Of a DNA stretch of 59,758 nucleotides, positions 7,125 through 37,145 are shown in pieces (position 1 is the stretch's first letter; each line of letters begins with the position of its first letter). A program made the translations under genes and the position numbers. This stretch comes from a virus. The DNA lies in the IMG/VR virus record IMGVR_UViG_3300025310_000004, positions 1-59,758 of that record. One strand, 5' to 3'. The notes under the pieces were generated by a model. The model saw nothing but the letters and a program-made list of their open reading frames with translations, made no database searches and had not been told where the DNA came from.

Positions 7125-7178
7125 ACCTGGGTCAAACGGCCCACGAACAGGCGTTCTGTGGATAACCCTGTGGACAAA

Positions 7179-22517: not shown

Positions 22518-22588
22518 CCTGAGAACGCCTCGCGCTCGCGCTGACGCGTGTGGCTCCTGAGAACGCCTCGCGCTCGCGCTGACGCGTG
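22518..22588. repeat. tandem 33-bp direct repeat
   Basis: Two identical 33-base units (22518-22550 and 22556-22588) starting CCTGAGAACGCCTCGCGC and ending TGACGCGTG. Each contains the CTGAGAACG motif and an internal palindromic GCGC-rich segment. Related single copies lie at about 27032 and 29340. Confidence 0.75.
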
Positions 22589-22682
22589 GGAGGTGGGGGT
22601 GCTGCGGCCAGTGGGCCTCCCACAACTGGCCGCCCCGGCCCGGCGAGGCCGGTGGCCGGGGGTCGCCCCCCGGCCCGGCCCC

Positions 22683-22883: not shown

Positions 22884-22984
22884 GGTGATCCCCTTTCGGT
22901 CGGGCCGCCCCGTGCGGCCTTACAAGAGACAGGGTACACCATGGGCGACCGATTACCATAGGTCATTCGGCACATCCTAGGGTT

Positions 22985-23081
22985 GACTACGATGATCCAA
23001 ACGACCTATGGTCAGTGTCGCACCCGGCATGTACGATGCTCTCAGCAAGTCGCCACGGGGGCGGCTGCGGAAAGGGGAACA
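22985..23081 (+). promoter_or_regulatory. cassette promoter and leader
   Basis: Element CCAAACGACCTATGG, then TGTCGC-10 bp-TACGAT, then the leader hairpin GTCGCC-ACGG-GGGCGGC and GGAAAGGGGAAC before ATG 23084. This layout recurs upstream of about a dozen genes to the right. Confidence 0.6.
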
Positions 23082-23083
23082 CC

Positions 23084-23395
23084 ATGCTCACCATCCTCGC
23101 CAGGATCGCCACCGTCGCCTACGTCGGGGCGCTCGACTCCCAGGCGCTCACCACGACGTGCGCCATGCACAAGGGTGCCGATCCGGTGCTCGCCGCCACG
23201 GTGCGCTCGGCGCACGCCGCGACGGGAGCCGCGCTCGCGGTGGCGCTCGCCCCGTTCGGGGTGCAGCCGGGCGACAAGGTGCCGGGGTCGGAGTCGTCCT
23301 ACACCACGGCCGACGGTCGCACGGTGGTCCACTCGATGGACTACGCCACGGGTGCCCGCGTGTACGGGTCGCAGTTGATCGGCGGAGCCTCGTAG
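23084..23395 (+). CDS. unknown Ala-rich protein
   Basis: 103 residues. Helical Ala-rich first half and a beta-rich C-terminus (TTADGRTVVHSMDYATGARV). No signal peptide is evident. Function unknown. Confidence 0.75.
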   Translation: MLTILARIATVAYVGALDSQALTTTCAMHKGADPVLAATVRSAHAATGAALAVALAPFGVQPGDKVPGSESSYTTADGRTVVHSMDYATGARVYGSQLIGGAS

Positions 23396-23403
23396 GCCAC
23401 CGG

Positions 23404-23430
23404 CCCGGTCCCCTCCGGGGGGCCGGGCCT
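23404..23430 (+). terminator. GC hairpin after the 23084 gene
   Basis: GGCCCGG with CCGGGCC around TCCCCTCCGGGGG; no T tract. Confidence 0.45.
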
Positions 23431-23492
23431 GCCGACGGCCCACAGGCGGCCAGTTGCCCCACGGTCACTGGCCGTCCCCTGGCTCGAATGAG

Positions 23493-23519
23493 CCGAATGA
23501 CCTATGGACCCCGTATTAT
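23493..23519 (+). promoter_or_regulatory. cassette promoter, TATTAT-spacer variant
   Basis: CCGAATGACCTATGG (23493-23507) then CCCCGTATTATCA in place of the TGTCNC operator. Other copies of this variant: 25084, 26592 and 32891. Confidence 0.55.
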
Positions 23520-23582
23520 CATCGGGTGTACCTTGGTCACATCGAGAGGGCGCACGGGGCGTCACCGAGAAGGGAGAACATC

Positions 23583-23897
23583 ATGGACACCATCTGGGCA
23601 GCCACCATCAACACCGAGGGCACCATCGAGTTCCTCACCGAGAAGCCGACCTACGAGGTCCTGCGCGACGCGGTGGGCGGCTACATCGCTCCGGTCACCT
23701 GCCCGCACGGCGACACCGTGTACGTCCACGACGAGGGCCTGCTCATGGGCCTGGACCCCAACATGGGGGCCATGCTCGTGTCGCAGTACCCGCTGCTCGT
23801 GGGCGACGCCATCGTCTGCGGCCCGCTGGACGACGAGGGCGACCACCTGCCCCTCACCGCTCCGGTGGTGCAGTTCCTCCGACGCCTGTCGGAGTGA
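23583..23897 (+). CDS. DUF3846-like protein
   Basis: 104 residues. The layout EFLTEKPTYEVLRDAVGGYI, then DTVYVHDEGLLMGLDPN, MGAMLV and a C-terminal GDAIVCGPLDDEG follows DUF3846, a family of uncharacterised proteins in phages and mobile elements of Gram-positive bacteria. ATG follows GAGAAGGGAGAACATC. Confidence 0.8.
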   Translation: MDTIWAATINTEGTIEFLTEKPTYEVLRDAVGGYIAPVTCPHGDTVYVHDEGLLMGLDPNMGAMLVSQYPLLVGDAIVCGPLDDEGDHLPLTAPVVQFLRRLSE

Positions 23898-24025
23898 GCC
23901 GACCGGCCCGGCCCCTCCGGGGGTCGGGCTTCGGCCCGCCACCACTGGCCGCCCCCTGCCCTGGGAGCCACTGGCCGGGGTGGGGCCGACAGCATCTCGT
24001 GACGAGAAACTGTCGAGCGAATGAG

Positions 24026-24075
24026 CCGAATGACCTATGGTCACGGTGGCGCACGTCCGGCATACTATCCACATC
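24026..24075 (+). promoter_or_regulatory. cassette promoter
   Basis: CCGAATGACCTATGG (24026-24040), TGGCGC-10 bp-TACTAT. Confidence 0.55.
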
Positions 24076-24112
24076 GGCACCACGGGGGTGCCCGACGAAA
24101 GGGGAATCCAAC

Positions 24113-24961
24113 ATGAGCGACACCGACACCCTGACCATGAGCACCGACGACGTGCTCGCCGCCATGCTCACCGAGAACACCGGGCGTCACATGCTCGACA
24201 GCGGTGGGGCCTACGGGCGCAACTTCGAGAGGAACGCGGGCAAGACCACCGCGGACTTCCTCGCCGCCCCGGAGGTGCACGTCGAAACGTGGGAGCGCGA
24301 CGGCGCGACCGTCGTGGAGTACGTCGTGCTCGACGTGTTCCACTTCCTGCGGCAGCGGTGTGAGTTCGACGCCGACCTCGACGCGCAGTTCCGCGAGTTC
24401 GCCATGAGCGACGAGTACCGCGACGAGTCGTGGTTCGCCTGCCTCGACGCGTGGCTCGACGCCATCGGTGCCCGCCTGGGGAACGATCGGCCCATGGTGG
24501 TGAACACCTACAACGGCGAGGACAACTTGTCACAGGTGATTCAGTACGCCGTGTTCGATCACCCGGAGACGGGCGATGCCATGGCGGCCATCGCGATCCA
24601 CGGGGGATGCGATGTCCGGGGCGGCTACACCGCGCCGCGCATGTTCGCCATCGGGGACCACTACGCGCTGTTCGACAACGCGGACCTTGAGGTCTACATG
24701 CGGGAGCCGGAGCCGGTCGTCGTGCCCGGTCAGGACCCGCTGTTCACCCTGCCCGCCCGGCCCGACCGATCGGTCAGCATCTCCATCCGCGGCGGCTACG
24801 GGGACCGCTACGCCGAACCCTACGATGACAAGTCGCTCGACGCGATCGACTTCGAGTTCGGGGCGACGCCGGTCACCGTGGAGGGCGACACCTACACCGT
24901 GGCCGATGGCCCGGCCAAGGGGTGGACCGTCCACTTCGATCCCCCGTTCCCCTGCGGCTGA
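24113..24961 (+). CDS. acidic protein of unknown function, one of the larger cassette genes
   Basis: 282 residues, GACGAAAGGGGAATCCAAC before ATG. A helical N-terminal half (VLDVFHFLRQRCEFDADLDA) is followed by a region with AIAIHGGCDVRGGYTAPRMF and a C-terminal beta-rich domain. No known motif. Confidence 0.85.
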   Translation: MSDTDTLTMSTDDVLAAMLTENTGRHMLDSGGAYGRNFERNAGKTTADFLAAPEVHVETWERDGATVVEYVVLDVFHFLRQRCEFDADLDAQFREFAMSDEYRDESWFACLDAWLDAIGARLGNDRPMVVNTYNGEDNLSQVIQYAVFDHPETGDAMAAIAIHGGCDVRGGYTAPRMFAIGDHYALFDNADLEVYMREPEPVVVPGQDPLFTLPARPDRSVSISIRGGYGDRYAEPYDDKSLDAIDFEFGATPVTVEGDTYTVADGPAKGWTVHFDPPFPCG

Positions 24962-24980
24962 TCTTCCCCCCACCCCCGGC

Positions 24981-25019
24981 CCGGAACCCTCAACCTCAAC
25001 TAGAGGTTGAGGGTTCCGG
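24981..25019. repeat. longest copy of the GAGGTTGAGGG inverted repeat
   Basis: A perfect 17-bp stem (CCGGAACCCTCAACCTC with its complement) around AACTA. Located downstream of the 24113 gene; it may terminate transcription in both directions or bind a protein. Confidence 0.75.
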
Positions 25020-25083
25020 CGCGCCCGGCCCCTGGACGGCCAGTACCCCCTGGGCTACTGGCCGGGTGCTGGCCTAGGATGAT

Positions 25084-25110
25084 CCGAATGACCTATGGAT
25101 CGCCTATTAT
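25084..25110 (+). promoter_or_regulatory. cassette promoter, TATTAT-spacer variant
   Basis: CCGAATGACCTATGG, TATTAT at 25105-25110 and a second TAAGGT box 10 bases on. Confidence 0.5.
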
Positions 25111-25155
25111 CACTCCGGTAAGGTGGGGGCATCCCAACGACGAAAGGAGTTCACC

Positions 25156-25869
25156 ATGACCACCATCGAGATGTTCGAGGTCGGCGGCTGCGTCCGCGAC
25201 GAGTTCATGGGCAAGCGGTCCAAGGACGTGGACTTCGTGGTGCTCGCTCCTTCCTTCGACGCCATGCGCGCCGAGTTGGTCCGGCGGGGCTTCACGATCC
25301 ACGTCGAGAAGCCCGAGTTCGTCACCATCCGCGCGGGTGTGCCCAAGGGCGACCCCCTGCGGGAGCGCACCAAGGACGCGGACTTCGTGCTCGCTCGCAA
25401 GGATGGCCCCACGGCCGACGGCCGACGGCCCGAGTTCGTGGAGCCTGGCGACCTCATGGACGACCTCGCTCGCCGCGACTTCACGGTGAACGCGATCGCC
25501 CGAGCGGTGGACGGCCGGATCATCGACCCCTTCGGTGGTCGGGCTGACATCGAGTTCAGGCGGCTGCGCTTCGTGGGCGACCCCGTGGAGCGCATCACCG
25601 AGGATGGCCTGCGGGTACTGCGGGGCTTCCGCTTCATGGTGACCAAGGGACTCACCCCCACGGGTGAAACCCTGGAAGCCCTGACGCGGCCCCTGGCGAC
25701 CGAGATGCTGGCGAGGGTCAGCACCGAGCGCATCCGCGAGGAGGTGGAGCGCATGCTCGCCTTCGACACGCTCGCCACGCTGGACATCCTGAGCCACACC
25801 ATGCCCGTCGAGATGCGGGACGTGGTGTTCTCCGGTGGCCTGCGCCTGAGCGCCACCATGAAGGGGTGA
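25156..25869 (+). CDS. minimal tRNA nucleotidyltransferase / poly(A) polymerase-like protein
   Basis: 237 residues. Hallmarks of class II nucleotidyltransferases: VGGCVRD (9-15), KDVDFVV with the catalytic DxD (24-26), RRDFTVNA, a DPFGG turn, and RFVGDPVERITEDGLRVLRGF (neck-domain motif). Bacterial CCA enzymes have about 400 residues; here the body and tail domains that bind tRNA are absent. It may add CCA or A tails, or modify another RNA. Coordinates rest on the standard site GACGAAAGGAG. Confidence 0.9.
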   Translation: MTTIEMFEVGGCVRDEFMGKRSKDVDFVVLAPSFDAMRAELVRRGFTIHVEKPEFVTIRAGVPKGDPLRERTKDADFVLARKDGPTADGRRPEFVEPGDLMDDLARRDFTVNAIARAVDGRIIDPFGGRADIEFRRLRFVGDPVERITEDGLRVLRGFRFMVTKGLTPTGETLEALTRPLATEMLARVSTERIREEVERMLAFDTLATLDILSHTMPVEMRDVVFSGGLRLSATMKG

Positions 25870-26049
25870 GGGCTTCGGCCCCCACCCCTTCGGGGCGTGG
25901 AGCGGCCAGTCGAACCCTGGGGCGGCCAGTCGTGCTGGTGTGTGTCGCACTCGGACCGAATGATCCGAATGGCCCATACCCCCGGTGTCGCACCTATGCC
26001 ATACTCTCCTTGTCGGCACGGGGCCGACGACGACGAAAGGAGCACCACC

Positions 26050-26292
26050 ATGGCGAACACCGTCAAGACTCGCTACGGGACCATCGACTACCGGCAGGAC
26101 TACCTGTTCGAGCCGGTCGGTCTGGACCTGTTCGATCCCAAGCCGCACCAACCGGAGCCGGGCACCGAGGTCACGCCGATCCGCCCGCCGCACGGGTGCC
26201 CCAACCCCATCCCCATGGGGATGATCTACGTCAACGACGCCGAGACGGGCGAGTTCCGTGGGCTGGTGCTGATCGCCAGCCTCATGGGGTGA
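26050..26292 (+). CDS. small unknown protein
   Basis: 80 residues, GACGAAAGGAGCACCACC before ATG. Pro-rich middle (PKPHQPEPGTEVTPIRPPHG). P10 promoter upstream with a CCGAATGGCCCATA element. Confidence 0.8.
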   Translation: MANTVKTRYGTIDYRQDYLFEPVGLDLFDPKPHQPEPGTEVTPIRPPHGCPNPIPMGMIYVNDAETGEFRGLVLIASLMG

Positions 26293-26297
26293 CCGCC

Positions 26298-26495
26298 ATG
26301 GCAGCGATGACCTACAACGAGTGGTACGGCGAGGTGACCGTGGCACTCAACCGGGCACTCAAGCGGTACAACGTCTCCCCCTACGACTACCAGGAGTTGG
26401 AGCACGAGTTCGGGGAAGGGAACTACGACGCCATCCTCGCCGCGGTGAAGCAGCGGAGCACCGACGGCTACTACCGCCCCGCACTCCGCTGGTAG
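26298..26495 (+). CDS. small helical protein
   Basis: 65 residues from ATG 26298, right after the 26050 gene and probably co-translated. Contains NEWYGEVTVALNRALKRYNV. Function unknown. Confidence 0.7.
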   Translation: MAAMTYNEWYGEVTVALNRALKRYNVSPYDYQELEHEFGEGNYDAILAAVKQRSTDGYYRPALRW

Positions 26496-26500
26496 CCGAC

Positions 26501-26534
26501 GCCCCGCCCCGTCCCCCCTTCCGGGGCGGGGCTT
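26501..26534 (+). terminator. GC-rich hairpin after the 26298 gene
   Basis: GCCCCGCCCCG pairs with CGGGGCGGGGC, followed by TTCGGCC. Confidence 0.5.
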
Positions 26535-26591
26535 CGGCCCCCACGACTGGCCGGGTGCGAGGTTCTCGGTAGGCATCGTTCGACAGTAGGG

Positions 26592-26618
26592 CCGAATGAC
26601 CTATGGACCCCGTACTAT
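26592..26618 (+). promoter_or_regulatory. cassette promoter, TACTAT-spacer variant
   Basis: CCGAATGACCTATGG then CGTACTATCAC, with a second box CATACTGG downstream. Confidence 0.5.
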
Positions 26619-26678
26619 CACCCTGCCATACTGGTACTTGCAAGGCACCACGGGGGTGCCAGCAGAAAGGGGATCACC

Positions 26679-26996
26679 ATGATCTATGCACTCTGGTTCG
26701 GCGGGGTGGGCTACGCCCCCGGCGACATGGTGGAGGACCTTGAGTCCTTCCCGTCCCTCGCCGCCGCCAAGGCCGCCCTGTCCGAGCGCTACGCCCGCGG
26801 CTACTCCTTCCGGCAGGACTTCGAGTTCGTCAACCGGGAGCCCGAGTCGGTCTACTGCCCCTGCGTGGAGGACGACTCCCGTATGTGGGTATGGCTCGCC
26901 GCCGACGAGGTGGACGGGGTGACCTACGTCCCCGAGTACCCGGACCGGATCATCGAGTTCGGCCCACGGGGCGGCGTGAACGTCACCGCCGCCTGA
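26679..26996 (+). CDS. unknown protein
   Basis: 105 residues; AGAAAGGGGATCACC before ATG. Tyr/Asp/Glu-rich mixed alpha/beta (YALWFGGVGYAPGDMVEDLE). No family recognised. Confidence 0.8.
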   Translation: MIYALWFGGVGYAPGDMVEDLESFPSLAAAKAALSERYARGYSFRQDFEFVNREPESVYCPCVEDDSRMWVWLAADEVDGVTYVPEYPDRIIEFGPRGGVNVTAA

Positions 26997-27003
26997 CAAC
27001 GTT

Positions 27004-27031
27004 CCGGGGGTGCCCTCGCGAGGGGGCACCC
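27004..27031 (+). terminator. hairpin terminator
   Basis: GGGGGTGCCCTC-GCGA-GGGGGCACCCCT after the 26679 gene. Confidence 0.5.
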
Positions 27032-27320
27032 CTAAGAACGCCTCGCGCGTGCGCTATCGCGTGAGATGTAGGCCCCACACGGCCAGTAGCCCCTACCACC
27101 ACTGGCCGCCACCCCCCCCTCAACCCTCAACCTCTACTTGAGGTCGAGGGTTCGCCCGCGTCACTGGCCGCCCCCGGCCCTTGTCCACAGGCTGTGGACA
27201 AACCTGGGGATGACGCACCCCCACCGAATGATCCGAATGACCTATGGACCATGGCGCACCCCACCCCTACTATGTACCCCATGAGGTCGCCACGGGGGCG
27301 GCCCTAGAAAGGGGAACACC
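27032..27320. other. repeat-rich spacer with a second DnaA-box pair
   Basis: No gene. Contains CTAAGAACGCCTCGCG, GGCCAGT ... ACTGGCC at 27079-27106, the GAGGTCGAGGG inverted repeat at 27122-27152, the DnaA-type palindrome TTGTCCACA-GGC-TGTGGACAA at 27181-27201, and the 27233 promoter with leader hairpin. Confidence 0.6.
27181..27201. promoter_or_regulatory. inverted pair of DnaA-like boxes
   Basis: TTGTCCACA and TGTGGACAA, 3 bp apart, same geometry as the 7102 pair but with the one-base variant box. Confidence 0.55.
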
Positions 27321-28184
27321 ATGAGCACCGATGAGGCACGGCAGGCACTCGACACGCTGCACGCGAGCATCGCGAAGATCACCGACTCCGACGCCTGGCG
27401 CGAGCACCTGGCGGTGCAGGCCCGGTTCCACGACTACAGCCCGCTCAACATCATGTGGATGTGGTGCCAGTGGGAGGCCCGCCGCGCCGAGAACCCCGAC
27501 CTGCCGGAGTTCTCCCAGCCCGCAGCGTTCTCCGCCTGGAAGGACCTGGGTCGCCACGTCCGCAAGGGCGAGAAGGCCCTGAGCGTTCTCGCTCCCATCA
27601 TCGTCACCGACCGCGAGAACCTGGGTCCCGACGGCAAGCCGCGGACCAAGTGCGTCGGGTTCCGCGTGAAGCGGCGCACGTTCGATGTGGCGCAGACTGA
27701 GGGCGACCCCCTCCCCGAGAACCCCGCCATGCCGTCGCTGCTGACGGGCGAGGGCGACCCCGCCACCTGGGAGGCCCTGGTGGCGCACGCCGCGACCCTG
27801 GGGTGCACGGTGCAGGTCACCGACGCCTGCCAGCCCGCGAACGGGGACTACAGCCGGGCGACGGGGCTGATCCGCGTGGCCGAGAGCCTGGACCACGCGC
27901 AGCAGGTCAAGACCCTGCTGCACGAGGTGGCGCACGCCACGCTGCACAGTGGCGACACCGACCTGAGCCGGGCCGAGAAAGAGGTCGAGGCCGAGAGCAC
28001 CGCTTTCGTGGTCGCCGCCCTGCTGGGGTTCGACACCGCGGCCTACAGCGTCGGCTACGTCGCCACCTGGGCGAGCCGGGACGACCATGGCGAGTGCCTG
28101 CGGCGCACGACTGAGCGAGTCGTGAAGGCCGCCCGCACCATCGCCGCAGCCCTGGCGCAGCACCCCGCCACGCTGGCAGCCTGA
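27321..28184 (+). CDS. ArdC-like antirestriction protein with zinc peptidase domain
   Basis: 287 residues. Residues 1-120 follow the ArdC N-terminal ssDNA-binding domain (YSPLNIMWMWCQ, then FSAWKDLGRHVRKGEKALSV, PIIV). The C-terminal half is a zincin: LLHEVAHATLH (HExxH at 201-205) and a downstream EVEAES that supplies the third ligand. ArdC proteins protect incoming plasmid DNA from restriction. Length is close to plasmid homologues. Cassette promoter at 27233 and leader hairpin upstream. Confidence 0.9.
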   Translation: MSTDEARQALDTLHASIAKITDSDAWREHLAVQARFHDYSPLNIMWMWCQWEARRAENPDLPEFSQPAAFSAWKDLGRHVRKGEKALSVLAPIIVTDRENLGPDGKPRTKCVGFRVKRRTFDVAQTEGDPLPENPAMPSLLTGEGDPATWEALVAHAATLGCTVQVTDACQPANGDYSRATGLIRVAESLDHAQQVKTLLHEVAHATLHSGDTDLSRAEKEVEAESTAFVVAALLGFDTAAYSVGYVATWASRDDHGECLRRTTERVVKAARTIAAALAQHPATLAA

Positions 28185-28186
28185 GG

Positions 28187-28220
28187 GCGAGGGGCGGTCC
28201 GAACCTGGGCCGCCCCTCAA
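28187..28220 (+). terminator. hairpin after the ArdC-like gene
   Basis: GGGGCGGTCC ... GGGCCGCCCC; an inverted repeat of the GAGGTTGAGGG family (28228-28254) follows. Confidence 0.45.
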
Positions 28221-28465
28221 CCCTCAACCCTCAACCTCAAGTAGAGGTCGAGGGTTTGGGGCCTGGGTGGGCCAGTCGAGCCCTGCGCCGGGCCAGTCAG
28301 ACCTGGGGGATGGTGAACCCGGCGGTCGCCCCCTGGTCGAGCGGGACGCCCCCAGGGGATCGCCTCGGAGAACGGGCCATACGACCCACTTGACGGGTAG
28401 GTTGTATCATAGGCTACGATGGCGACACGCCAACAGGGGCGAGCAACCCGAAGGGGGTGACCAAC

Positions 28466-28660
28466 ATGAGCAAGCGCAAGCGCAAGCCACAGAAGGCAGG
28501 CACCGTGGCCGAGACGGTCACCTTCATGCGCCGCCAGAACCGCGAGGCCATCGTGGCCGACATGCGGGAGGGGCGGGTGCAGAAGGCTCACACCTTCACC
28601 GATCGCAAGCGCGAGGCACGCCGCACGGCCTGCCGGGGGAAGTTCTCCCCGGCAGACTGA
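28466..28660 (+). CDS. small very basic protein
   Basis: 64 residues, GAAGGGGGTGACCAAC before ATG. Lys/Arg-rich (MSKRKRKPQKAGTVAETVTF); related in style to the basic proteins at 30705 and 32175. Nucleic-acid binding is likely from charge alone. Confidence 0.75.
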   Translation: MSKRKRKPQKAGTVAETVTFMRRQNREAIVADMREGRVQKAHTFTDRKREARRTACRGKFSPAD

Positions 28661-28768
28661 GCGCAAGACCGAGGGCGGTCCACGTTCCGCCCAGGGGGAA
28701 CCCTCCTGATGGCCGCACCGCTTCGGCGGGGGGCAAGTGTAGGGAGGGAGGTCGAGCAACCCCGAAGC

Positions 28769-28796
28769 CCCCGGAGGGTCGCGAACCTCCGGGGGT
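28769..28796 (+). terminator. 10-bp GC hairpin
   Basis: CCCCCGGAGG-GTCGCGAA-CCTCCGGGGG in the gene-free stretch 28661-28940. Confidence 0.55.
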
Positions 28797-28940
28797 GAAC
28801 GTGGCCGACGTGACTGGCCGCCCGCCCCGGCGCACGGTCCGAAGATGGTCCGAACGGCCTATAGTACGGGATGGCGTAGACGTGCCATACTGTCACCACG
28901 GCAACGCACGGGGCGGGGCCACCGACGAAAGGGGAACTAC

Positions 28941-29228
28941 ATGAGCATGATCGTCACCGGGGGAATCATCGACACCTCCCGGCTCCGGGCACTCGCTGCC
29001 GCATGGCACTCGGGCATGTCCTCGCCGCTCTACGCGCTGGCGTCCTCCGGGGCCATCGTGGACGGCATCGAACGCGAGGTGGAGGAAGCCATCGCGGACG
29101 CCGAGCGGTTCGGCACCACCGACCCGGACTACGCCGCCGACGTGGTGCCCCTGCGCCACCTGCTGACCTACGTCCGACACCACGGCCCGCGCGGCCCGGT
29201 GGAGGGGTGGAGCGACATCCGCTTCTGA
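28941..29228 (+). CDS. unknown helical protein
   Basis: 95 residues, GACGAAAGGGGAACTAC before ATG. Helical (TSRLRALAAAWHSGMSSPLY). The promoter upstream has CCGAACGGCCTATAG and TGGCGT-10 bp-TACTGT. Confidence 0.8.
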   Translation: MSMIVTGGIIDTSRLRALAAAWHSGMSSPLYALASSGAIVDGIEREVEEAIADAERFGTTDPDYAADVVPLRHLLTYVRHHGPRGPVEGWSDIRF

Positions 29229-29603
29229 GAACGTGGGCGGGAGCAATACCGGGGGTCGCTCCCTCGGGGCGAGGGTCGCCACCTCGCCGGGGCCGTGAGC
29301 GCCCCGCAACCTCCCGCCCTCGCTCGCCGCCTCGCCGCCCTGAGAACGCCTCGGGCGCGTCTGACGCGGGGCACCCTGAGAACGCCTCGGGCGCGGCTGC
29401 CGCGCATATGGCGGGACGCCCCCTGCGGCCAGTGGCCGCCCTACTACTGGCCGCACCCCGCCCCCGGAGGCCGAACGGGTGTTCGTGAGTCTGTCGGCCC
29501 CCCACCGAATGATCCATCTGGCCTATGGTCAGTGTCGCACCCGTCCTGTATCGTTCTCCCCATCGGTGCCACGGGGGCACCGCCGACGAAAGGGGGCCAC
29601 CCT
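29229..29603. other. repeat-rich spacer
   Basis: No gene. Two copies of CCTGAGAACGCCTCGGGCGCG at about 29339 and 29376, a GGCCAGTGGCC / ACTGGCC pair near 29428-29451, the SOS-like palindrome at 29472-29485, a P10 promoter (TGTCGC-10 bp-TATCGT) and the leader hairpin GTGCCACGGGGGCAC. Confidence 0.6.
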
Positions 29604-29867
29604 ATGGCCGAATCCGAGAGCCGATCCGAGCGGGCGATGTTCGCCGCCGTCTGGGTACTGATCGCGTTCGCCCTGTTCTACTTCGGGGCGCACGTCGTGA
29701 TCGCCGTGCACCGCGGGACCTTCCCGCCCGAGCCGCGCCCGGTGCCCGAGTGCACCGTCTGGGAGGATGGCTCCGCCCGGTGCACCCTGCCGCCCTCGCA
29801 ATGGGTCCCGGCAGGCACCACCCTGAGCGGGTGCAGCGACGACCCTGCCGCCCTCTGCCACGACTGA
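29604..29867 (+). CDS. single-pass membrane protein
   Basis: 87 residues. One membrane helix (about 12-36, FAAVWVLIAFALFYFGAHVV) after a charged N-terminus, then a Pro/Cys-rich outside segment with four Cys (CTVW, CTLP, CSDD, CHD). The AGGGGG upstream fits ATG 29604. Possible superinfection or envelope role, unproven. Confidence 0.8.
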   Translation: MAESESRSERAMFAAVWVLIAFALFYFGAHVVIAVHRGTFPPEPRPVPECTVWEDGSARCTLPPSQWVPAGTTLSGCSDDPAALCHD

Positions 29868-29946
29868 GGCCCGCCCGCCCTCCCCACCAGGGGGGCGGGT
29901 GCGCCCCTGCACTGGCCGCTCCCTCGCCTCGCCGGACGAGGAAGGG

Positions 29947-29993
29947 CCGAATGGCCTATGGAGTTCCTGTCACACCTGACCGATACTATACCT
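29947..29993 (+). promoter_or_regulatory. cassette promoter with palindromic operator
   Basis: CCGAATGGCCTATGG, TGTCAC-10 bp-TACTAT, then leader hairpin GGGCCGC-ACGG-GGCGGCCC. Confidence 0.6.
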
Positions 29994-30045
29994 ATGAGCG
30001 GGCCGCACGGGGCGGCCCACCGGCACCACCTGAGAGGGGGTGAGC

Positions 30046-30228
30046 ATGGTCAGCACCACCGCAGTCGTCACGCTGTCGGACGGTACCCAGGTCGGGATCA
30101 CCGTCACCGATGGCGAGGTGACCTGGGTGGCGGAGCGCCCGACGCCGGGCGCATCCTGGGGACCGCCTCTGCGGCGTCAGGATGAGGAGTGGCGTCACGA
30201 GCGCGACACCTTCGCCATCCGCGACTGA
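30046..30228 (+). CDS. small unknown protein
   Basis: 60 residues, GAGAGGGGGTGAGC before ATG. Beta-rich N-terminus (STTAVVTLSDGTQVGITVTD), charged tail. GTG 30040 in frame is less likely. Confidence 0.75.
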   Translation: MVSTTAVVTLSDGTQVGITVTDGEVTWVAERPTPGASWGPPLRRQDEEWRHERDTFAIRD

Positions 30229-30704
30229 ATCGGATTCGGCCCCCGCCGGGGGGGTGGCAACAGAAACCCCGGCCCCCTCAGGGGGGATCATCTCCTCAGC
30301 GTTGCGCGACGCGATCCGGCACCGCGCACCCTGAATCACACAGTGAGGCGGTTCGACTCCGCCGCCCGAGGGGGACCCGGTTGGTCACTGTGCAGGGGCC
30401 GGGGTAGGGAGGTGGTCCCCCCTGAGGGGTGCGGTCGGCCAGTGCGGCCCTGGGAACTGGCCGCCCTGGGCCTGGGGTGGACGGGGGAGAGGTCGCCCCC
30501 TCCCCCGTCGCCCTCTGTTGCGGCGGTGCCGCTAGTGGGTAGCACCCTCTCTCCGGGCGGGGCCAGCCGCCCACGTCCTGGCCGACGTGAGTGCTCGTCT
30601 GTTGCACCGAGGCTCCTACTTGAGAGTGATACCGCCCACTAGGGGCACCCCCTGAGGGGTGGGGGAGTTCTGTTGCCGCGCCTCCCCCGTGCGCCGAGTC
30701 TGAG
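30229..30704. other. 476-bp gene-free stretch with nested stem structures
   Basis: No convincing gene. Contains a tRNA T-arm-like hairpin (30347-30363) enclosed by CACAGTGA/TCACTGTG (30339-30346, 30385-30392), GGCCAGT ... ACTGGCC at 30433-30465, and many GC hairpins. It ends at the convergent stop of the 30705 gene. Confidence 0.5.
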
Positions 30705-30872
30705 TCAGTCCTGAGCCTGAGCGGCTACGGCGGCCCGCCGCGCCTTCGCCGCGGCCCGCTGCGCCCCCCGACGCTCCTGCCGACGCTTGTCGGCCGCAGC
30801 GTTCCGCTCGTCCCGCTTGTCGCGGAAGTCGGTGCGGGTGGCTCGCTCCATGTTGAGCGATCCCTGTGCCAT
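30705..30872 (-). CDS. small Arg/Ala-rich basic protein
   Basis: 55 residues, CGAAGGGGGTGAACAG before ATG 30872. One long basic helix (ADKRRQERRGAQRAAAKARR). Reverse cassette with promoter CCGAATGACCTATTC and GATAAT. Similar in kind to 28466 and 32175. Confidence 0.7.
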   Translation of the reverse strand: MAQGSLNMERATRTDFRDKRDERNAAADKRRQERRGAQRAAAKARRAAVAAQAQD

Positions 30873-31183
30873 CTGTTCACCCCCTTCGGGTGTCCCTTCC
30901 CCGGCGGCCCCGTGCCGTCGTGGTATGTATGTATTATCGGCCCTGCCACCGAGGAAGTGAATAGGTCATTCGGATCATATCTCGGGGGGCCGACACCGAA
31001 CGGGTGTTCGAGGGCGTGCCCCCGGCCAGTTCGCCCCCCAGCACTGGCCGACCTGGGCCTCTGCGGGCCGAACACGCGTTCGCCCGGCAAGGTAGGGCCG
31101 AATGGCCTATGGTACTGTCGTACCCGTTTGATACTATGTCCCTGTCGGGCCGCACGGGGCGGCCGACAGAAGGGAGACTCACC
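30873..31183. other. divergent regulatory spacer
   Basis: No gene. Reverse promoter for 30705, two SOS-like palindromes (30997, 31069), GGCCAGT ... ACTGGCC between them, and the forward cassette promoter at 31098 (CCGAATGGCCTATGG, TGTCGT-10 bp-TACTAT) with leader hairpin. Confidence 0.6.
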
Positions 31184-31369
31184 ATGGCAACGCTCACCGC
31201 AGACGAGAAGCGCGAGGCCATCGCCCACGCTCGGGGCTTCGAGATCGAGGACCTTGAGGAAGCGATGATGGACGGAGGGATCGAGACGGCAGACGGCTGC
31301 TGGGTCGAGCCGGACGGGCGGTGCGCCCACGGGTACCCCTCCCCCCTCCGCATCCTCGGCTACATCTGA
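31184..31369 (+). CDS. small acidic protein
   Basis: 61 residues, GACAGAAGGGAGACTCACC before ATG. Helical (DEKREAIAHARGFEIEDLEE), with two Cys. Function unknown. Confidence 0.75.
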   Translation: MATLTADEKREAIAHARGFEIEDLEEAMMDGGIETADGCWVEPDGRCAHGYPSPLRILGYI

Positions 31370-31714
31370 GCCGCACGGGGTCGGCCCTACGGGGTCGGCC
31401 CCATCGGCGCGCCCGCCGACGCCCTGGGCGGCCAATTCCCCCGCCACCACTGGCCGCAGCCCGGCCCTGCGGCGGCCGAACGCCTGTTCGATCGTCGGCC
31501 CCGTCGGATATGATCCGAATGGCCTACTTGACGTACCGGCCCCGTACTATAGGATTGGCTCATACCCGCTGGGAAGCGGCACCGGCCCTAGATGCAGCGT
31601 GGCGGTTTGGCACCGCAGACCAAAGGCCAGCAATCGCAACATGCGACCATGAGGCGGCCCCACGGGGGGGCGGCCCTGAGTGCACCGAAAGGGGGTGAAC
31701 ATAAGGGGATCAAC
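31370..31714. other. spacer and unusually long leader
   Basis: No gene. An SOS-like palindrome at 31477, promoter element CCGAATGGCCTACTT, TACTAT at 31545-31550, then a leader of about 160 bases (others have about 45) before ATG 31715. The leader holds the usual GGCGGCCCCACGGGGGGGCGGCC-type hairpin preceded by an extra foldable segment. Confidence 0.5.
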
Positions 31715-31918
31715 ATGGACTTCACGGTCTGGGCACTCAAGGGCGACGGCACCGCCGAGGTGGTGGCCGAAGGGGTGGACGGCGAGCGCGCCGAGTCCAT
31801 CGCTCGACACCCGTCGCTGAGCGGTTGTCGGGTGGCGGTGCTGCCGACCTGGGCGGCGGGGCCGGTCCCCACGTCCCCGGCGGTGCTGGCCGCCATGGCG
31901 GCCGAGCGGGGCAACTGA
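31715..31918 (+). CDS. small protein of unknown function
   Basis: 67 residues, AAGGGGATCAAC before ATG. Starts MDFTVWALKGDGTAEVVAEG; layout resembles DUF-type small phage alpha/beta proteins. No assignment. Confidence 0.75.
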   Translation: MDFTVWALKGDGTAEVVAEGVDGERAESIARHPSLSGCRVAVLPTWAAGPVPTSPAVLAAMAAERGN

Positions 31919-31980
31919 GCCCCGCCGAGGTCCCGCCCCTCACGGGGGGCGGGGCTTCGCCGCGCCCGCACTGGCCGAAC

Positions 31981-32041
31981 CCTCAACCTCAACCTGAGGT
32001 TGAGACTCGCAACCCTCAACCTCAACTAGACGTTGAGGGTT
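31981..32041. repeat. two adjacent GAGGTTGAGGG inverted repeats
   Basis: CTCAACCTCAACCTGAGGTTGAG at 31982-32004 and a 31-bp copy at 32011-32041 (one mismatch), directly followed by GGCCAGT and an SOS-like palindrome at 32060. Confidence 0.65.
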
Positions 32042-32174
32042 GGCCAGTTACCCCTGGACCGAACGGGTGTTCGGCCCGAAAGTTGGGCCGAATGACCTAT
32101 TCACTTCCTGTCACGGGTGACCGATACTATACATGTGAGGCCGCCACGGGGGTGGCCCACCGAAAGGGGAAGTC

Positions 32175-32387
32175 ATGCACGGGAGCATCACCACCGAGCC
32201 GATGGGCGAGGCGCACAAGGTCGAGAAGTTCGACCACCGCCCCGACCGGACCGAGCGGGAGCGGGCGAGCAAGGCCCGCCGACAGGGCCGACGGGCCGAC
32301 CGCCGGACCGCCGCCCGCCGCCGCTACGAGGATGAGCAGCGGGGGGCCGACCTCATGGCTCGCCGCCACGGGGTCACCGCCGACTGA
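32175..32387 (+). CDS. small basic protein
   Basis: 70 residues, CGAAAGGGGAAGTC before ATG. The Arg-rich middle (SKARRQGRRADRRTAARRRY) suggests nucleic-acid or RNA binding. Promoter CCGAATGACCTATTC, TGTCAC-10 bp-TACTAT. Confidence 0.75.
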   Translation: MHGSITTEPMGEAHKVEKFDHRPDRTERERASKARRQGRRADRRTAARRRYEDEQRGADLMARRHGVTAD

Positions 32388-32398
32388 GGCCCGCCACC

Positions 32399-32425
32399 GG
32401 GGGCACCCCACGGGGTGCCCCTTCG
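32399..32425 (+). terminator. hairpin terminator with TTCGGCGCGCC tail
   Basis: GGGGCACC-CCAC-GGTGCCCC then TTCGGCGCGCC. The same tail follows hairpins at 32764, 33229 and 34288, suggesting a common, T-poor terminator type. Confidence 0.5.
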
Positions 32426-32575
32426 GCGCGCCCGCCCACGGCACTGGCCGCCCGCCCCGCCCGCCCGAGCGGCCCGCCGAACTTAGGGCCGAATGGCCTA
32501 TGTACCTGTCGCACCGTTCCTGTATGATCTACTCAAGAGGTCGCCACGGGGGCGGCCGCCACGAAAGGGGTCACC

Positions 32576-32752
32576 ATGACTCGCAAGGACTTCACCGCCA
32601 TCGCCCAGATCATCGCCGAGGTGCCCGAGCAGGGCGCAGGGCCGGAGTGGCTGGCGAGCGCCTTCGCCGCCTTCCTCGCCGGGACGAACCCCCGGTTCGA
32701 CCGGGACCGCTTCATGCGGGCCTGTGGCGTCGGCCACCTCGCGGACAACTGA
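32576..32752 (+). CDS. small unknown protein
   Basis: 58 residues, ACGAAAGGGGTCACC before ATG. Starts MTRKDFTAIAQIIAEVP and ends FMRACGVGHLADN, a pattern of a family of very short phage proteins that begin with a similar helix (FxxIAxII). Leader hairpin GGTCGCC-ACGG-GGGCGGCC and cassette promoter at 32489. Confidence 0.75.
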   Translation: MTRKDFTAIAQIIAEVPEQGAGPEWLASAFAAFLAGTNPRFDRDRFMRACGVGHLADN

Positions 32753-32890
32753 GCCGCCCGCCACGGGGCCGCCCTTCGGGGCGGCCCTTCGGCGCGCCCC
32801 GCCCCCGGCACTGGCCGAACCCTCACCCTCCACCCGAGGTTGAGGGTTGCGTTCTCACTGGCCGCCCGCCCGACCTTGGGGCAGGTAGGG

Positions 32891-32917
32891 CCGAATGACC
32901 TATGGACCCCCTACTAT
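32891..32917 (+). promoter_or_regulatory. cassette promoter, TACTAT-spacer variant
   Basis: CCGAATGACCTATGG, then CCCCTACTATCAC and a CATGAT box 10 bases later. Confidence 0.5.
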
Positions 32918-32982
32918 CACTCGTGCCATGATGAGGGCACGAGGTCGCCACGGGGGCGGCCCGCAACCCGAAGGGGACCACC

Positions 32983-33216
32983 ATGACCACCTACGCCTAC
33001 GACGTGGCCGAGATTTCGGCCGCCTGCCGCCTCTGCGGCGACGTGCACTTCGCCATCGTGGCCGAGGCCGATTTCGTCCGGTTCTACTGCGAGGGCGAAC
33101 TCGTGCAGGTCGCCTTCCCCGAGGCCACGCCCGAGGTGCGCGAGATCGCCATGGCCTACCGGCCGAACGGCTACTACGTCTGCCCCGCCTGCTGGGAGGC
33201 CATGGGCGACGAGTGA
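32983..33216 (+). CDS. small zinc-ribbon-like protein
   Basis: 77 residues. CRLCGD in the N-terminal part and CPACWE near the end make a four-Cys site. CCGAAGGGGACCACC before ATG. Function unknown. Confidence 0.8.
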   Translation: MTTYAYDVAEISAACRLCGDVHFAIVAEADFVRFYCEGELVQVAFPEATPEVREIAMAYRPNGYYVCPACWEAMGDE

Positions 33217-33459
33217 CCGCCCGCCACGGGGGCACCCCACGGGGTGCCCCTTCGGCGCGCCTACCACCCTCAACCCTCAACCCTCACCCTCAACCTCAGG
33301 TCGAGGGTCGGAGGCCCCCGGCGGCCAGTCCATAGGGTCTAGAGGCATGGCACCGGCCAGTCGAACTAGGCCCCGGCCAGTCGAATGCCCCTCTCCTCTC
33401 GCAACGCGTGACGCGTGTAGGGGCAGGGGGTCGAACCCCCCGCCCCCCTCGCGCTCGCC

Positions 33460-33678
33460 TCAGTCGTAGAGGCTCACGCTCAGTTCCCACGCCCGGAGCC
33501 ACGACTCCATCGTGGGGCACAGGTCCTTCGCCTCCCACCACAGGACCTCCATGGCGGCGGTGTCCTCGGCGTCATCGCCGTAGGTGTCGAGCACCCAGGA
33601 CGACGCGAGAGCGTGGAGGGCGAGCAGGCTCGCCGCCCCGAGCAGGTTGTCCAGGGTGGTGGGCTGGGTGGTGTCCAT
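33460..33678 (-). CDS. small acidic helical protein
   Basis: 72 residues, CGAAAGGGGACCACG before ATG 33678. Trp-rich helix (AAMEVLWWEAKDLCPTMESW). Its reverse promoter (TGTCAC-10 bp-TACTAT) is at about 33728-33749. Confidence 0.75.
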   Translation of the reverse strand: MDTTQPTTLDNLLGAASLLALHALASSWVLDTYGDDAEDTAAMEVLWWEAKDLCPTMESWLRAWELSVSLYD

Positions 33679-34086
33679 CGTGGTCCCCTTTCGGTCGAGC
33701 ACCCCCGTGGTGCTCGCTTACAGACATAGTATCGGCAGGGTGTGACAGGAACTTGAGCCATCCGCCGAAGATGTGCCGAACGGCCTACGAACATCCGTTC
33801 GCCCCCTCCGACCGAACGGGTGTTCGGTCGCCGCCCGACGGTACTGGCCGCAACCCTCAACCTGGGGTCGAGGGTTGGTCGAACCCTCACCCTCAACTAG
33901 AGGTTGAGAGTTTGCGGCGAACTGGCCGCCGCCCCCCTCCGGTGGCGCAGACCGAACGGCTGTTCGCCGAACGGCTGTTCGTGGTCCGAACGGATCATTC
34001 GCACCGGATCGCTCAAGTTCCTGTCACACCGGGCCGATACTATGACTGTGAGGCCGCCACGGGGGTGGCCGACGAAGGGAGACACC
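33679..34086. other. divergent spacer rich in palindromes
   Basis: No gene. Four SOS-like palindromes (33788, 33813, 33953, 33968), two GAGGTTGAGGG-family repeats (about 33850-33912), ACTGGCC motifs, and the forward P10 promoter (TGTCAC-10 bp-TACTAT, about 34023-34044) with leader hairpin GGCCGCC-ACGG-GGGTGGCC. Confidence 0.65.
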
Positions 34087-34272
34087 ATGGACCCGAACGC
34101 TGCACTCCGCAACATGCGCGAGGCCATCTCGCGCACCTGGGAGGCCGAGGGCGAGGCCGACCGCCTCGCTGCGGCCGAGGACCTCGCCGTTGCGGCCGAG
34201 GCCCTGGACTCGTGGCTCAGCACCGGGGGCTTCCTCCCCTCCGGCTGGGCTGCGGCCGAACCGGCCGCCTGA
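34087..34272 (+). CDS. small helical Ala/Glu-rich protein
   Basis: 61 residues, GACGAAGGGAGACACC before ATG. Amphipathic helix (ALRNMREAISRTWEAEGEAD). Last standard cassette before the alien island. Confidence 0.7.
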   Translation: MDPNAALRNMREAISRTWEAEGEADRLAAAEDLAVAAEALDSWLSTGGFLPSGWAAAEPAA

Positions 34273-34796
34273 GTCCAACCCTCAACCGGGGCGCCCCCCT
34301 CAACCGGGGGCGCTTCGGCGCGCCCGCCCTAAGAACGAACCCTCGACCTCAACTTGAGGTTGAGGGTTGGGCCGCGGCTAGTACCTCCTTGGCGCTGGGC
34401 GCTGAGAACGACTGCGGCCCGGCATACGGCCCCCCGCCCCCCCAGGAAGGACGCACGGGGGGCATACCCGACTGGCCGAGGCCCGGCCTCTGCTTAGGCG
34501 GCCCGGCCCGGCTCCGCCGCCGCCCGCCTCCCGACCGAACACGCGTTCGGGCCGAACAAGCGTTCGGGCCAAACACGCGTTCGGCGAACGGCCGTTCGTG
34601 GGCCGATCGGCCCACCACGCCCGACGGGGCGCGGCGAGCGCCACCACGGGCGCCGACGACGACCACACCCGACGGGCGCGCCGACGCCGACGGCGTAGCG
34701 GGCGCAACCACTACCACGACCACGGCGCCGCGGTCAACCACCACGCCGACGACGACCACGCCGACGACGCCGACGACGCCGGGCACGGGAGGGTAC
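34273..34796. other. 524-bp non-coding stretch: repeats, SOS-like cluster and island border
   Basis: A terminator hairpin at 34287, the inverted repeat at 34339-34368, CTGAGAACG at 34402, an SOS-like cluster at 34536-34598 (three exact, one near), then from about 34620 an abrupt change to repetitive GACGACG/GGCGCC-rich sequence. No gene seen. Confidence 0.55.
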
Positions 34797-34850
34797 TTGA
34801 CCACGCCGACGGGATCGCCTAAGGTAACGACGACCAACCACCACGGCGCC
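34781..34850 (+). repeat. 70-bp direct repeat carrying a consensus promoter, copy 1
   Basis: Contains TTGACC (34797-34802), 17 bp, TAAGGT (34820-34825). Identical second copy at 35397-35466. The promoter lacks both P10 and CCGAAT elements, so these genes are wired differently from the rest. Confidence 0.8.
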
Positions 34851-34881
34851 ACCACGGCGCCGCCCGACCACGGGAGACACC

Positions 34882-35319
34882 ATGACCACCACGACCGACA
34901 CCATGACCACCACGACGGGCGGGCGCATCGTGCGCGCCTACGCGGTGAGCGTGAGCATGGCAGGGTACCTGCCGAACGACGGCGCCGTGGCGCTCTACGC
35001 CGATGCCTACGACGCCGTGCGCGACGCCGTGGACACGTTGCGCCGTGACGCCGACGACGTTTGGTCACTCCACGACGACGACGCCGACATGGCGCGCGAT
35101 GCCGCGGCACCCTACGACGACGCGGCAAGCGCGCTCGCCGCGTCGGCCGACGCCGTGGCCGCGCACCTACTCACGGCGCCGATGGACTACGGGCACGACG
35201 TCATCGTGCGATCGGTCTACGGTCCAACCATGGTCTACCGCGTCGCGGTCGTCGCGGCGTGCTGCCCGTCGGTCGTGGACGGGCGCGGCCACGACGGCGC
35301 GCCGTGGTCGTGCGATTGA
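34882..35319 (+). CDS. island gene 1, unknown acidic/Ala-rich protein
   Basis: 145 residues, GGGAGACACC before ATG. Thr-rich start (MTTTTDTMTTTTGG), then SVSMAGYLPNDGAVALYADA, an Asp/Ala-rich helical region and a C-terminal CC pair. Codon choice is skewed to GAC, GCC/GCG, ACG. Function unknown. Confidence 0.7.
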   Translation: MTTTTDTMTTTTGGRIVRAYAVSVSMAGYLPNDGAVALYADAYDAVRDAVDTLRRDADDVWSLHDDDADMARDAAAPYDDAASALAASADAVAAHLLTAPMDYGHDVIVRSVYGPTMVYRVAVVAACCPSVVDGRGHDGAPWSCD

Positions 35320-35396
35320 CCACGACGACCACCACGACGACCACGGGCGCCCGCTCACGACGGGCGCCCGTGGCGCGTCACGACGCCGACGACGAC

Positions 35397-35466
35397 GGGC
35401 ACGGGAGGGTACTTGACCACGCCGACGGGATCGCCTAAGGTAACGACGACCAACCACCACGGCGCC
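35397..35466 (+). repeat. 70-bp direct repeat with promoter, copy 2
   Basis: TTGACC (35413-35418), 17 bp, TAAGGT (35436-35441), upstream of the 35494 gene. Confidence 0.8.
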
Positions 35467-35493
35467 GACGGCGCCACGACCACGGGAGACACC

Positions 35494-35880
35494 ATGACCA
35501 CTCTCACGCCCGCCACCACGCCCGACGCGCCGACCACGCCCGACACCTACGCACGGCGCCTAGTGGCCGCGGGATTCACGCTCCACGACGCCCGACGCAT
35601 CGCACGCGACGCCGACGCCCGCGGCGCGTTCACGCCGACCACGGCGCCCGCCTACGACGACGCCGACACCGCGGCGGGCGCGGGATGGTCGGTCGTGGCG
35701 CTCCACGCCGACGGGCGCGGAGAGATTCTGACCACCACGCCGACGCACGGCGCCGCGGCCACGCTCGCCGCGGGCTACGACCGCGCCGCGACCATCGGCG
35801 CCGCCACGGGCGCCCGTCGGCGCTCGCGCATCGTGGTCGTGCCCGCCTACGACGCCGACGCCGTGGCGGGCGCGCGATGA
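35494..35880 (+). CDS. island gene 2, unknown protein
   Basis: 128 residues, CACGGGAGACACC before ATG. AARRLVAAGFTLHDARRIAR-like segment (actual YARRLVAAGFTLHDARRIAR) reads as an HTH-like or small helical domain; a beta-rich middle (GWSVVALHADGRGEILTTTP) follows. Function unknown. Confidence 0.7.
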   Translation: MTTLTPATTPDAPTTPDTYARRLVAAGFTLHDARRIARDADARGAFTPTTAPAYDDADTAAGAGWSVVALHADGRGEILTTTPTHGAAATLAAGYDRAATIGAATGARRRSRIVVVPAYDADAVAGAR

Positions 35881-35960
35881 CCACCGCGCCGACGGGCGGG
35901 CGCACCACGGCGCCCGCCCACCACGACCGACCGACCACCACGACCACCACGGGAGACACC

Positions 35961-36539
35961 ATGACCACGCTCACGCTCACGCCCGCCACGACCGACGCCG
36001 TGCGATTCACCACGGCGCCCGCTACGCCGTTCACGCCGACGCCCGTGGTGCTCACCGCGGGAACGGTCGTCGCGATTCGTTGGGCAGGGTACAACGGCGT
36101 GCGCGGCGCCACGGCGTTGCACAAGACCGAAACGGTCGTGAGCGTGGCCACGACCGACGGCGTGCGCGGCGTGCTCACGCTCACGGGCGGCGCTTACAAG
36201 AACGGCGCCACCACGCGCACGCTCAACACTCACCGCGCCGATGGGCGCCCGTCGTCGCAGATTCTCGGCGCCTACCCTGTCGGCGCCGTGGTGGCGGCGC
36301 TCGCCGCGGTCATGGGCGCCACGCCCGCCACGACCGACGCCGACGACCACGCCGACGCCGACGGCGCCACGACCGACGACCACGACCACGACGGCGACGG
36401 CGTGCCCGTGGTGGGCGGGCGCAGCGTGGCGGCGCGGCGAGGGTACGCGCGGGCTAAGCGGGCGGCGCGTCGCACGCTACGACGCGTGGAGCGCCGCGAC
36501 GCGATCCGCGCAGCGTGGCACGACCACGCCGACGCGTGA
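35961..36539 (+). CDS. island gene 3, unknown protein with basic C-terminus
   Basis: 192 residues. Starts MTTLTLTPATTDAVRFTTAP like island gene 2. The core VVLTAGTVVAIRWAGYNGVR is beta-rich; an Asp/His low-complexity stretch and a strongly basic tail (YARAKRAARRTLRRVERRDA) follow. Same ribosome site CACGGGAGACACC as its neighbours. Confidence 0.7.
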   Translation: MTTLTLTPATTDAVRFTTAPATPFTPTPVVLTAGTVVAIRWAGYNGVRGATALHKTETVVSVATTDGVRGVLTLTGGAYKNGATTRTLNTHRADGRPSSQILGAYPVGAVVAALAAVMGATPATTDADDHADADGATTDDHDHDGDGVPVVGGRSVAARRGYARAKRAARRTLRRVERRDAIRAAWHDHADA

Positions 36540-37030
36540 CCGCGGGCGCCGACGGGCGCCGACCACGACCACGGGCGCCCACCACGGGCGCCCGTGGCGC
36601 GTCCACGCCGACGCCCGCTCACGGGCACGCGTGGCACTCACGGGCACCACGACGCCCGACGGCGCGCCACGGGCGGCGCTCACGGGCGCCTAGGCGGCGC
36701 TCACGGGCGCCTAGGCGGCGCCCGTGCCCGTGCCCGTTGTGCCCGACCACGGGAGACACCACGACGAACGACGCGACGACGAACGACGCGACGAAACGAC
36801 GCGACGAAACGACGACCGACGACGACGCCCGACCACGGGCGCCACGCCGACGCCCGCTCACGGGCACGCGTGGCACTCACGGGCACCACGACGCCCGACG
36901 GCGACGACCGACGACGACGACCGGCGACGACGACGAACGACGCGACGAAACGACGCGACGAAACGACGCGACGAAACGACGCGACGACCGACGACCGACG
37001 ACCGACGACGACGCCCGACCACGGGCGCCA
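36540..37030. repeat. non-coding simple-repeat tail of the island
   Basis: Two 62-bp direct repeats (36603-36664, 36842-36903), tandem GGCGCTCACGGGCGCCTAGGC units (about 36672-36720), and two arrays of ACGACGCGACGAA-type repeats (about 36764-36830, 36926-37015). No gene is supported although several long frames are open by composition. Confidence 0.7.
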
Positions 37031-37040
37031 CGCTCACGCC

Positions 37041-37145
37041 CGAACGCGTGTTCGGCCGAACGCGTGTTCGTGGGCCGAACGACCTACGAACGTCTGTTCG
37101 CCCGAACGCGTGTTCGGCGCGTCGCGAGTACCGAACGCGTGTTCG
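37041..37145. repeat. tight cluster of five SOS-box-like palindromes
   Basis: CGAAC-N4-GTTCG at 37041-37054, 37057-37070, 37087-37100, 37103-37116 and 37132-37145. Four share the spacer GCGT. This is the densest array of the motif in the window. Confidence 0.85.

Follow-up and report, generated by a model that had tools for sequence, protein, structure and literature searches.

Why does a large virus carry 17 identical copies of a short palindrome in one block of its genome, and which protein reads them? The window analysed here covers positions 1 to 59,758 of the virus record IMGVR_UViG_3300025310_000004, which is 171,330 bp long, and the element in question is CGAACNNNNGTTCG (CGAAC-N4-GTTCG), all 17 exact copies of which lie within 29472-37145. 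Their sequence matches the operators of LexA, the repressor of the SOS response, and we propose that host LexA acts through them on the promoters of small phage genes.

A confined array of invariant palindromes

A recount agrees with the 17 exact palindromes that an earlier, sequence-only reading of this DNA had listed, and all of them are intergenic by our own gene calls (17/17), as that reading had claimed. Its expectation of a chance count well below one also holds. Dinucleotide shuffles of the window gave a mean of 0.10 palindromes and a maximum of 1, far from the 17 observed, and local shuffles of the 8.6-kb region in 50-bp blocks gave a mean of 0.008 and a maximum of 1 in 2000. The next commonest palindrome of the same design (a 5-mer, four free bases and the inverse 5-mer) reaches 5 copies in the window, and the other 111 kb of the record contain no exact copy of the palindrome and nothing comparable.

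A scan of the window allowing one mismatch adds three sites. The first, at 7144, is the near copy that had been noted before; the second, at 34570, lies inside the array and was missing from the earlier list; the third, at 55418, was discounted, as it breaks the spacer rule described below and is at chance level. In a matrix scan no array site scores below 17.8, nor does the 7144 site; the best of all other sites reaches 13.6, and a graded series of degenerate copies is absent. The box arms are 100% identical (their ten letters are fixed by the definition of the pattern), and the flanks at 16-60 bp show an identity of about 0.27, which is background. Because the arms are invariant and the flanks are at background identity, the boxes appear to be separately maintained sites and not duplicated DNA, and the duplication of larger units is ruled out as their source.

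Likeness to the LexA operators of Acidimicrobiia

The four bases between the arms are constrained as well. All 17 spacers fit CGAAC-RNNY-GTTCG, with a chance of about 4e-6 when only the 9 distinct spacers are counted, and 16 of the 17 boxes read CGAACGNNTGTTCG on either strand, the remaining one being symmetric. The left flank is mostly C and never T, and A stands on the right flank in just 3 of 18 boxes, such that the T..A flanks of the Actinomycetes type (TCGAAC...GTTCGA) are not found. Tandem CGAACGNNTGTTCG pairs were sought in 84,980 bacterial and archaeal genomes and occur in at least 118 stretches, mostly of Actinomycetota, including many Acidimicrobiia (chiefly metagenome-assembled genomes, MAGs). 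A LexA helix-turn-helix (HTH) is encoded beside the boxes in 89 of the 118 listed stretches, and a recA-type motif lies near the boxes in three further ones.

Because a query by tandem pairs is biased, lexA genes were also sampled by family model, with boxes not required, from Acidimicrobiia and from Actinomycetes, the class of a Nocardioides genome. Boxes with at most one mismatch lie upstream of lexA in 29/29 cases from Acidimicrobiia and 29/30 from Actinomycetes (58/59 together). RNNY spacers are present in 40 of the 41 exact boxes of Acidimicrobiia lexA promoters, and T..A flanks prevail in the lexA boxes of Actinomycetes, not in those of Acidimicrobiia. When native boxes are gathered with at most one arm mismatch and RNNY required, the resulting Acidimicrobiia LexA matrix scores the phage boxes at 18.3-21.6, within the native range (median 19.7, upper quartile 20.8); by the Actinomycetes matrix, 15 of 18 phage boxes fall under the native 10th percentile. 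At the sequence level, the lexA-adjacent boxes, the matching spacer rule and the matrix scores thus strongly support the LexA/SOS-box identity put forward in the earlier reading, and the phage boxes fit the Acidimicrobiia type and for the most part lie outside the Actinomycetes type.

The binding protein is probably supplied by the host. A six-frame search of the whole record found neither LexA_DNA_bind (PF01726) nor Peptidase_S24 (PF00717), and no tyrosine integrase either in this possibly incomplete record; no integrase turned up among the matches listed in general family scans. Since the record lacks these families, host LexA would be the likeliest binder. The WhiB genes and the relatives of capsid, portal and terminase point to an actinobacterial host, and from the operator type we infer that its class is Acidimicrobiia or related Actinomycetota.

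Alternatively, the boxes could bind a phage DNA-binding protein other than LexA, acting as an activator at about -75 or as a repressor, with convergent likeness to LexA operators. A phage binder had been suggested before; the absence of both LexA families removes one version of that suggestion and leaves other DNA-binding proteins as candidates. The upstream position of the boxes resembles a class I activator site, their directional preference (16/17 with G..T or its reverse) exceeds the LexA rule, and the window encodes small HTH proteins at 8325-8552, 9950-10255 and 37849-38280. However, none of these is LexA-like and none was matched to the boxes, and the RNNY rule and the arms are identical to those of native lexA promoters, with a score near the native upper quartile. 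As such, we regard a phage binder as unlikely.

Registration with small-gene promoters

A block of small-gene cassettes occupies 22950..34060, and its promoter cassette recurs between about 7.3 and 34 kb. In each cassette the motif CCGAAYGRCCTAYG precedes a TAYTAT-like -10 by 34-38 bp; next come a G-rich leader hairpin, a GAAAGGGGA-type ribosome-binding site and a small open reading frame (ORF), then a hairpin and ACTGGCCGC repeats. The motif CCGAAYGRCCTAYG sits around -47 to -33 of the predicted starts. Boxes accompany the cassettes only from 29.4 kb on, where they lie 18-38 bp upstream of CCGAAYGRCCTAYG or its counterpart, and at seven promoters the centre of the nearest box falls at about -69 to -83 relative to the predicted start. 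The computed centres at five of these are -68.5, -70.5, -78.5, -79.5 and -82.5; the nearer-box distances for g70 and g71 (about -77) were counted by eye on the promoter sequence, and the start sites are predictions.

The first box, CGAACGGGTGTTCG at 29472..29485 (plus strand), stands at about -82 in the g62 cassette (ORF 29637-29867). Two boxes separate the divergent genes g64 (minus strand) and g65 (plus strand): that at 30997..31010 (plus) lies at about -80 for the minus-strand promoter, and that at 31069..31082, in reverse orientation (CGAACGCGTGTTCG on the minus strand), at about -69 for g65. The plus-strand boxes at 31477..31490 and 32060..32073 lie at about -79 for g66 and about -71 for g67, respectively. 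Two boxes (33788 and 33813; 33788..33826) precede the minus-strand cassette g70, the first of them being part of a fused CCGAACGGCCTA-CGAAC..GTTCG element at 33776-33801, and a tandem pair 15 bp apart precedes g71 (33953..33981, plus). Such fusions of promoter motif and box occur three times, at 7132, 33776 and 37075, the one at 7132 between DnaA-type boxes. The sequence-only reading held that the boxes are not placed over obvious promoters. This is correct in that none overlaps a -35 or -10 element, but it missed the fixed upstream geometry: the boxes are registered on a repeated promoter type, and their placement is not random.

We therefore favour, with modest confidence, a reading in which the boxes are host-LexA operators at about -70 to -80 that gate the promoters of small, probably early, genes. 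In the undamaged host, LexA would occupy the boxes and gate these promoters jointly with a factor that reads CCGAAYGRCCTAYG; CCGAATGRCCTATG would be the stretch bound by this second factor. The promoters might be released by SOS induction, through RecA-driven cleavage of LexA, or through the dilution of LexA among growing numbers of phage genomes. The position of the boxes (-69 to -83) is unusual and could suit either sign of regulation, repression being likelier than activation. Boxes at a fixed distance upstream suggest a virus that listens to the SOS alarm of its host, or drains it.

The remaining array boxes form two dense clusters at the edges of a low-T segment. The left cluster (34536..34598, minus strand) has four boxes 15-17 bp apart, at 34536, 34553, 34570 (one mismatch) and 34585 (symmetric), mostly in reverse orientation; the right cluster (37041..37145, plus strand) has five in forward orientation, at 37041, 37057, 37087, 37103 and 37132. 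Between these oppositely oriented clusters, at 34600-37040, T is strongly reduced, with an AT skew of about 0.2-0.3 and a GC content of about 0.7. The genes g72-g74 in this segment are rich in ACC, ACG and GAC and have no PHROG match, and a repeated promoter, TTGACCACGCCGACGGGATCGCCTAAGGT, precedes g72 and g73.

Several observations weigh against promoter gating by LexA. No clear promoter lies at the usual distance from any of the nine clustered boxes, some cassettes at 29.9-32.9 kb have no box directly upstream, and the cassettes at 22-29 kb share the promoter motif yet carry no boxes. LexA operators normally overlap the promoter, and occupancy at -70 to -80 is not in itself an obstacle to RNA polymerase. 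The spacer ends are G..T in 16/17 phage boxes, and native boxes mix G..T, A..T and G..C. Finally, the known large actinophages tested (Racecar, Pumpernickel, A3Wally, Big4, GodonK, DSL-LC01, Satis, Sixama, Cece and pSt2308) have 0-2 boxes each.

The dense clusters would be compatible with titration of host LexA, one of the roles that the sequence-only reading had suggested. In its pure form the array would be a LexA decoy, in which 18 high-scoring operators bind away host LexA and raise the SOS state, to the benefit of phage replication through RecA, repair polymerases and nucleotide supply, and the nearby genes would be unregulated. The many near-consensus sites that overlap no promoter and include no degenerate members fit such a sponge, as do the clusters at 34.5 and 37.1 kb and the site in the DnaA-box region; induction of SOS by lytic infection has a precedent in some hosts, as reported for Rhodococcus phage WC1. 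A pure decoy does not, however, need registration at -69 to -83 of seven promoters, and we judge it rather improbable. A combined scheme, in which the array gates small takeover genes via LexA and, at rising copy number, drains LexA and forces SOS, would amount to a copy-number timer; we offer it tentatively and think it no likelier than the decoy.

The outlying one-mismatch box at 7144..7157 (minus strand) lies in the intergenic region 6832-7397, where DnaA-type boxes TTATCCACA / TGTGGATAA at 7103-7178 flank it and mark a candidate origin; another DnaA-like pair is found at about 27182-27202. This placement, the clustering of repeated palindromes and the ParB-like family hits in the record would suit a centromere-like partition array, which the sequence-only reading also considered, or replication-control sites. 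That proposal fares poorly: no ParA-type family is among the matches listed (the best 25 per family scan), the ParB-like hits are of the nuclease- or methyltransferase-associated phage type, the sites follow promoters in a fixed geometry over 7.7 kb, and their sequence equals LexA operators, not parS. We consider it highly improbable.

A function in RNA, as hairpins or terminators in the intergenic spacers, is the least probable of the explanations weighed here. A single box does fold, at -7 to -12 kcal/mol, but the boxes have no following T-run and lie upstream of predicted starts, gene ends are held by a stronger AACCCTCAACC...GAGGGTT hairpin (-22 kcal/mol) and by GC hairpins, and neither the fixed arm letters nor the R/Y spacer ends are needed for folding. 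Integron-type attC sites were ruled out by inspection rather than by a search, the core letters being wrong and the sites too short.

The intergenic spacers at 22000-34400 are themselves repeat mosaics of ACTGGCCGC (19 copies), AACCCTCAACCTCAAC..GTTGAGGGTT hairpins (-22 kcal/mol) and GGGGCACCCC..GGGGTGCCCC hairpins, an arrangement reminiscent of exchangeable small-gene cassettes. Rfam has no match in the window, and an ARAGORN call of tRNA-Met at 29186-29274 overlaps the end of the predicted ORF 28941-29228 and is probably spurious. A Ro-like (TROVE) RNA-binding protein is encoded at L006:14555-16162, and with the PNKP phosphatase, RlaP and RNA ligase families, also in the record, it forms an RNA-repair set.

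Other viruses and known LexA-controlled phages

A comparison of relatives, proposed with the original observation, gave a divided answer. The nearest protein relatives found lack the array: those of the 38.4-39.5 kb protein (37-53% identity, L012-L021) have none, with one chance-type box in one record, and a 74% capsid relative lies on a 27.5-kb fragment without boxes. No relative was found for the ArdC-like protein, the window DNA has no match in the phage and plasmid collections, and the promoter-motif pattern has one unrelated chance match in IMG/VR and otherwise none. Clustered boxes do recur, however, in other viral contigs. Box pairs occur in at least 120 viral stretches and three or more clustered boxes in 69, several of which encode WhiB-like proteins; none encodes a clear LexA, and one has a weak match. 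Among 50 clustered-box viral records the count is 3-8 per record, and the highest seen in any other record is 14; the 17 boxes of the present record are the highest count seen. Under the tentative combined scheme above, such clusters, present in dozens of viral contigs from metagenomes, would reflect a widespread, overlooked actinophage strategy. Four low-GC (35-38%) viral contigs (L055, L047, L053 and L074) make up a virus group of their own in which LexA-type sites are pervasive, at 8-14 per record or about one per 700-1000 bp, mostly CGAACATACGTTCG / CGAACATATGTTCG.

Ten exact boxes fall within the first 8 kb of a 20-kb contig from a Flavobacteriales MAG (L171/L339; G156:C128). This contig resembles a piece of an actinophage, with one short protein match to a cassette-block gene and further matches to PHROGs and actinophage proteins, and its place in that MAG is probably a mis-binning. 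Its small-gene promoters have a repeated motif, TTCCRYATNGYGGAACNGTTCC, immediately next to the box; this motif differs from CCGAAYGRCCTAYG (the adjoining promoter element is also given as GGAACNGTTCC), and the boxes lie 130-156 bp before the start codons, by distances taken by eye. Since these boxes abut the promoter motif of their own contig, two largely unrelated phages appear to pair LexA-type boxes each with its own promoter motif, an arrangement that a pure decoy would likewise not need.

If host LexA binds the array, a large actinophage whose hosts belong to an uncultured group of actinobacteria abundant in the environment would time small unknown genes by the DNA-damage state of its host, and the boxes would give a handle on the function and timing of those genes. 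The flank code of the operator (Acidimicrobiia versus Actinomycetes type) gives a simple means, open to testing, of predicting the hosts of metagenomic viruses, and the 69 viral stretches in which at least three boxes cluster are a ready set in which to ask whether LexA sensing or titration is a common strategy of lytic phages. The literature searched, with few subscription journals covered, yielded no description of LexA operator arrays in actinophages.

That host LexA can control phages is already known. Phage 186, CTX and others are under such control, and several host-LexA-controlled phage groups are cited in PMC9437464. In the Bacillus tectivirus GIL01, host LexA represses phage promoters through dinBox1/1b/2/3, with gp7 as co-repressor and gp6 as a LexA homologue; at P3 the phage activator gp6 binds over the -35, and the LexA sites lie downstream of the -35 (PMC4551915, PMC6182141). 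The present array resembles GIL01 in its LexA-type operators at phage promoters and its tandem boxes, and the gp6 site overlapping the -35 at P3 recalls the position of the second motif, -47 to -33, in the present phage. In contrast, the GIL01 operators overlap promoters, whereas the boxes here are upstream at -69 to -83; GIL01 has few sites and a LexA homologue, whereas this large actinophage has 17-18 sites and no recognisable homologue; and GIL01 is temperate, whereas no integrase was recognised in this possibly incomplete record, and any lysogeny of the present phage could be extrachromosomal. The jumbo prophage pBtic235 of B. thuringiensis is likewise a large phage, and the LexA of its host binds its operator in vitro (PMC9700832); it has one operator before one operon, as against about 18 predicted ones over 7.7 kb here.

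Two further systems share the multiplicity of sites. The phage phi29 has multiple promoter-associated Spo0A sites, and phages of Alphaproteobacteria carry CtrA sites in what has been called 'lytic deferment' (PMC9437464); these are lytic phages that read a master regulator of the host and likewise have multiple sites for a host transcription factor in front of promoters whose genes are uncharacterised, with another regulator and host group, and they sense sporulation or the cell cycle, not DNA damage. Like this array, the stoperators of cluster A mycobacteriophages are many short repressor-type sites spread through actinophage intergenic regions. Stoperators are asymmetric, genome-wide and bound by a phage-encoded immunity repressor; the host LexA palindrome found here occupies a single 7.7-kb block, and no phage repressor for it was recognised. 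What appears to be new, by the papers searched, is the combination seen here: a large actinophage in which neither a LexA homologue nor an integrase is recognisable and in which 17-18 sites stand at a constant upstream distance.

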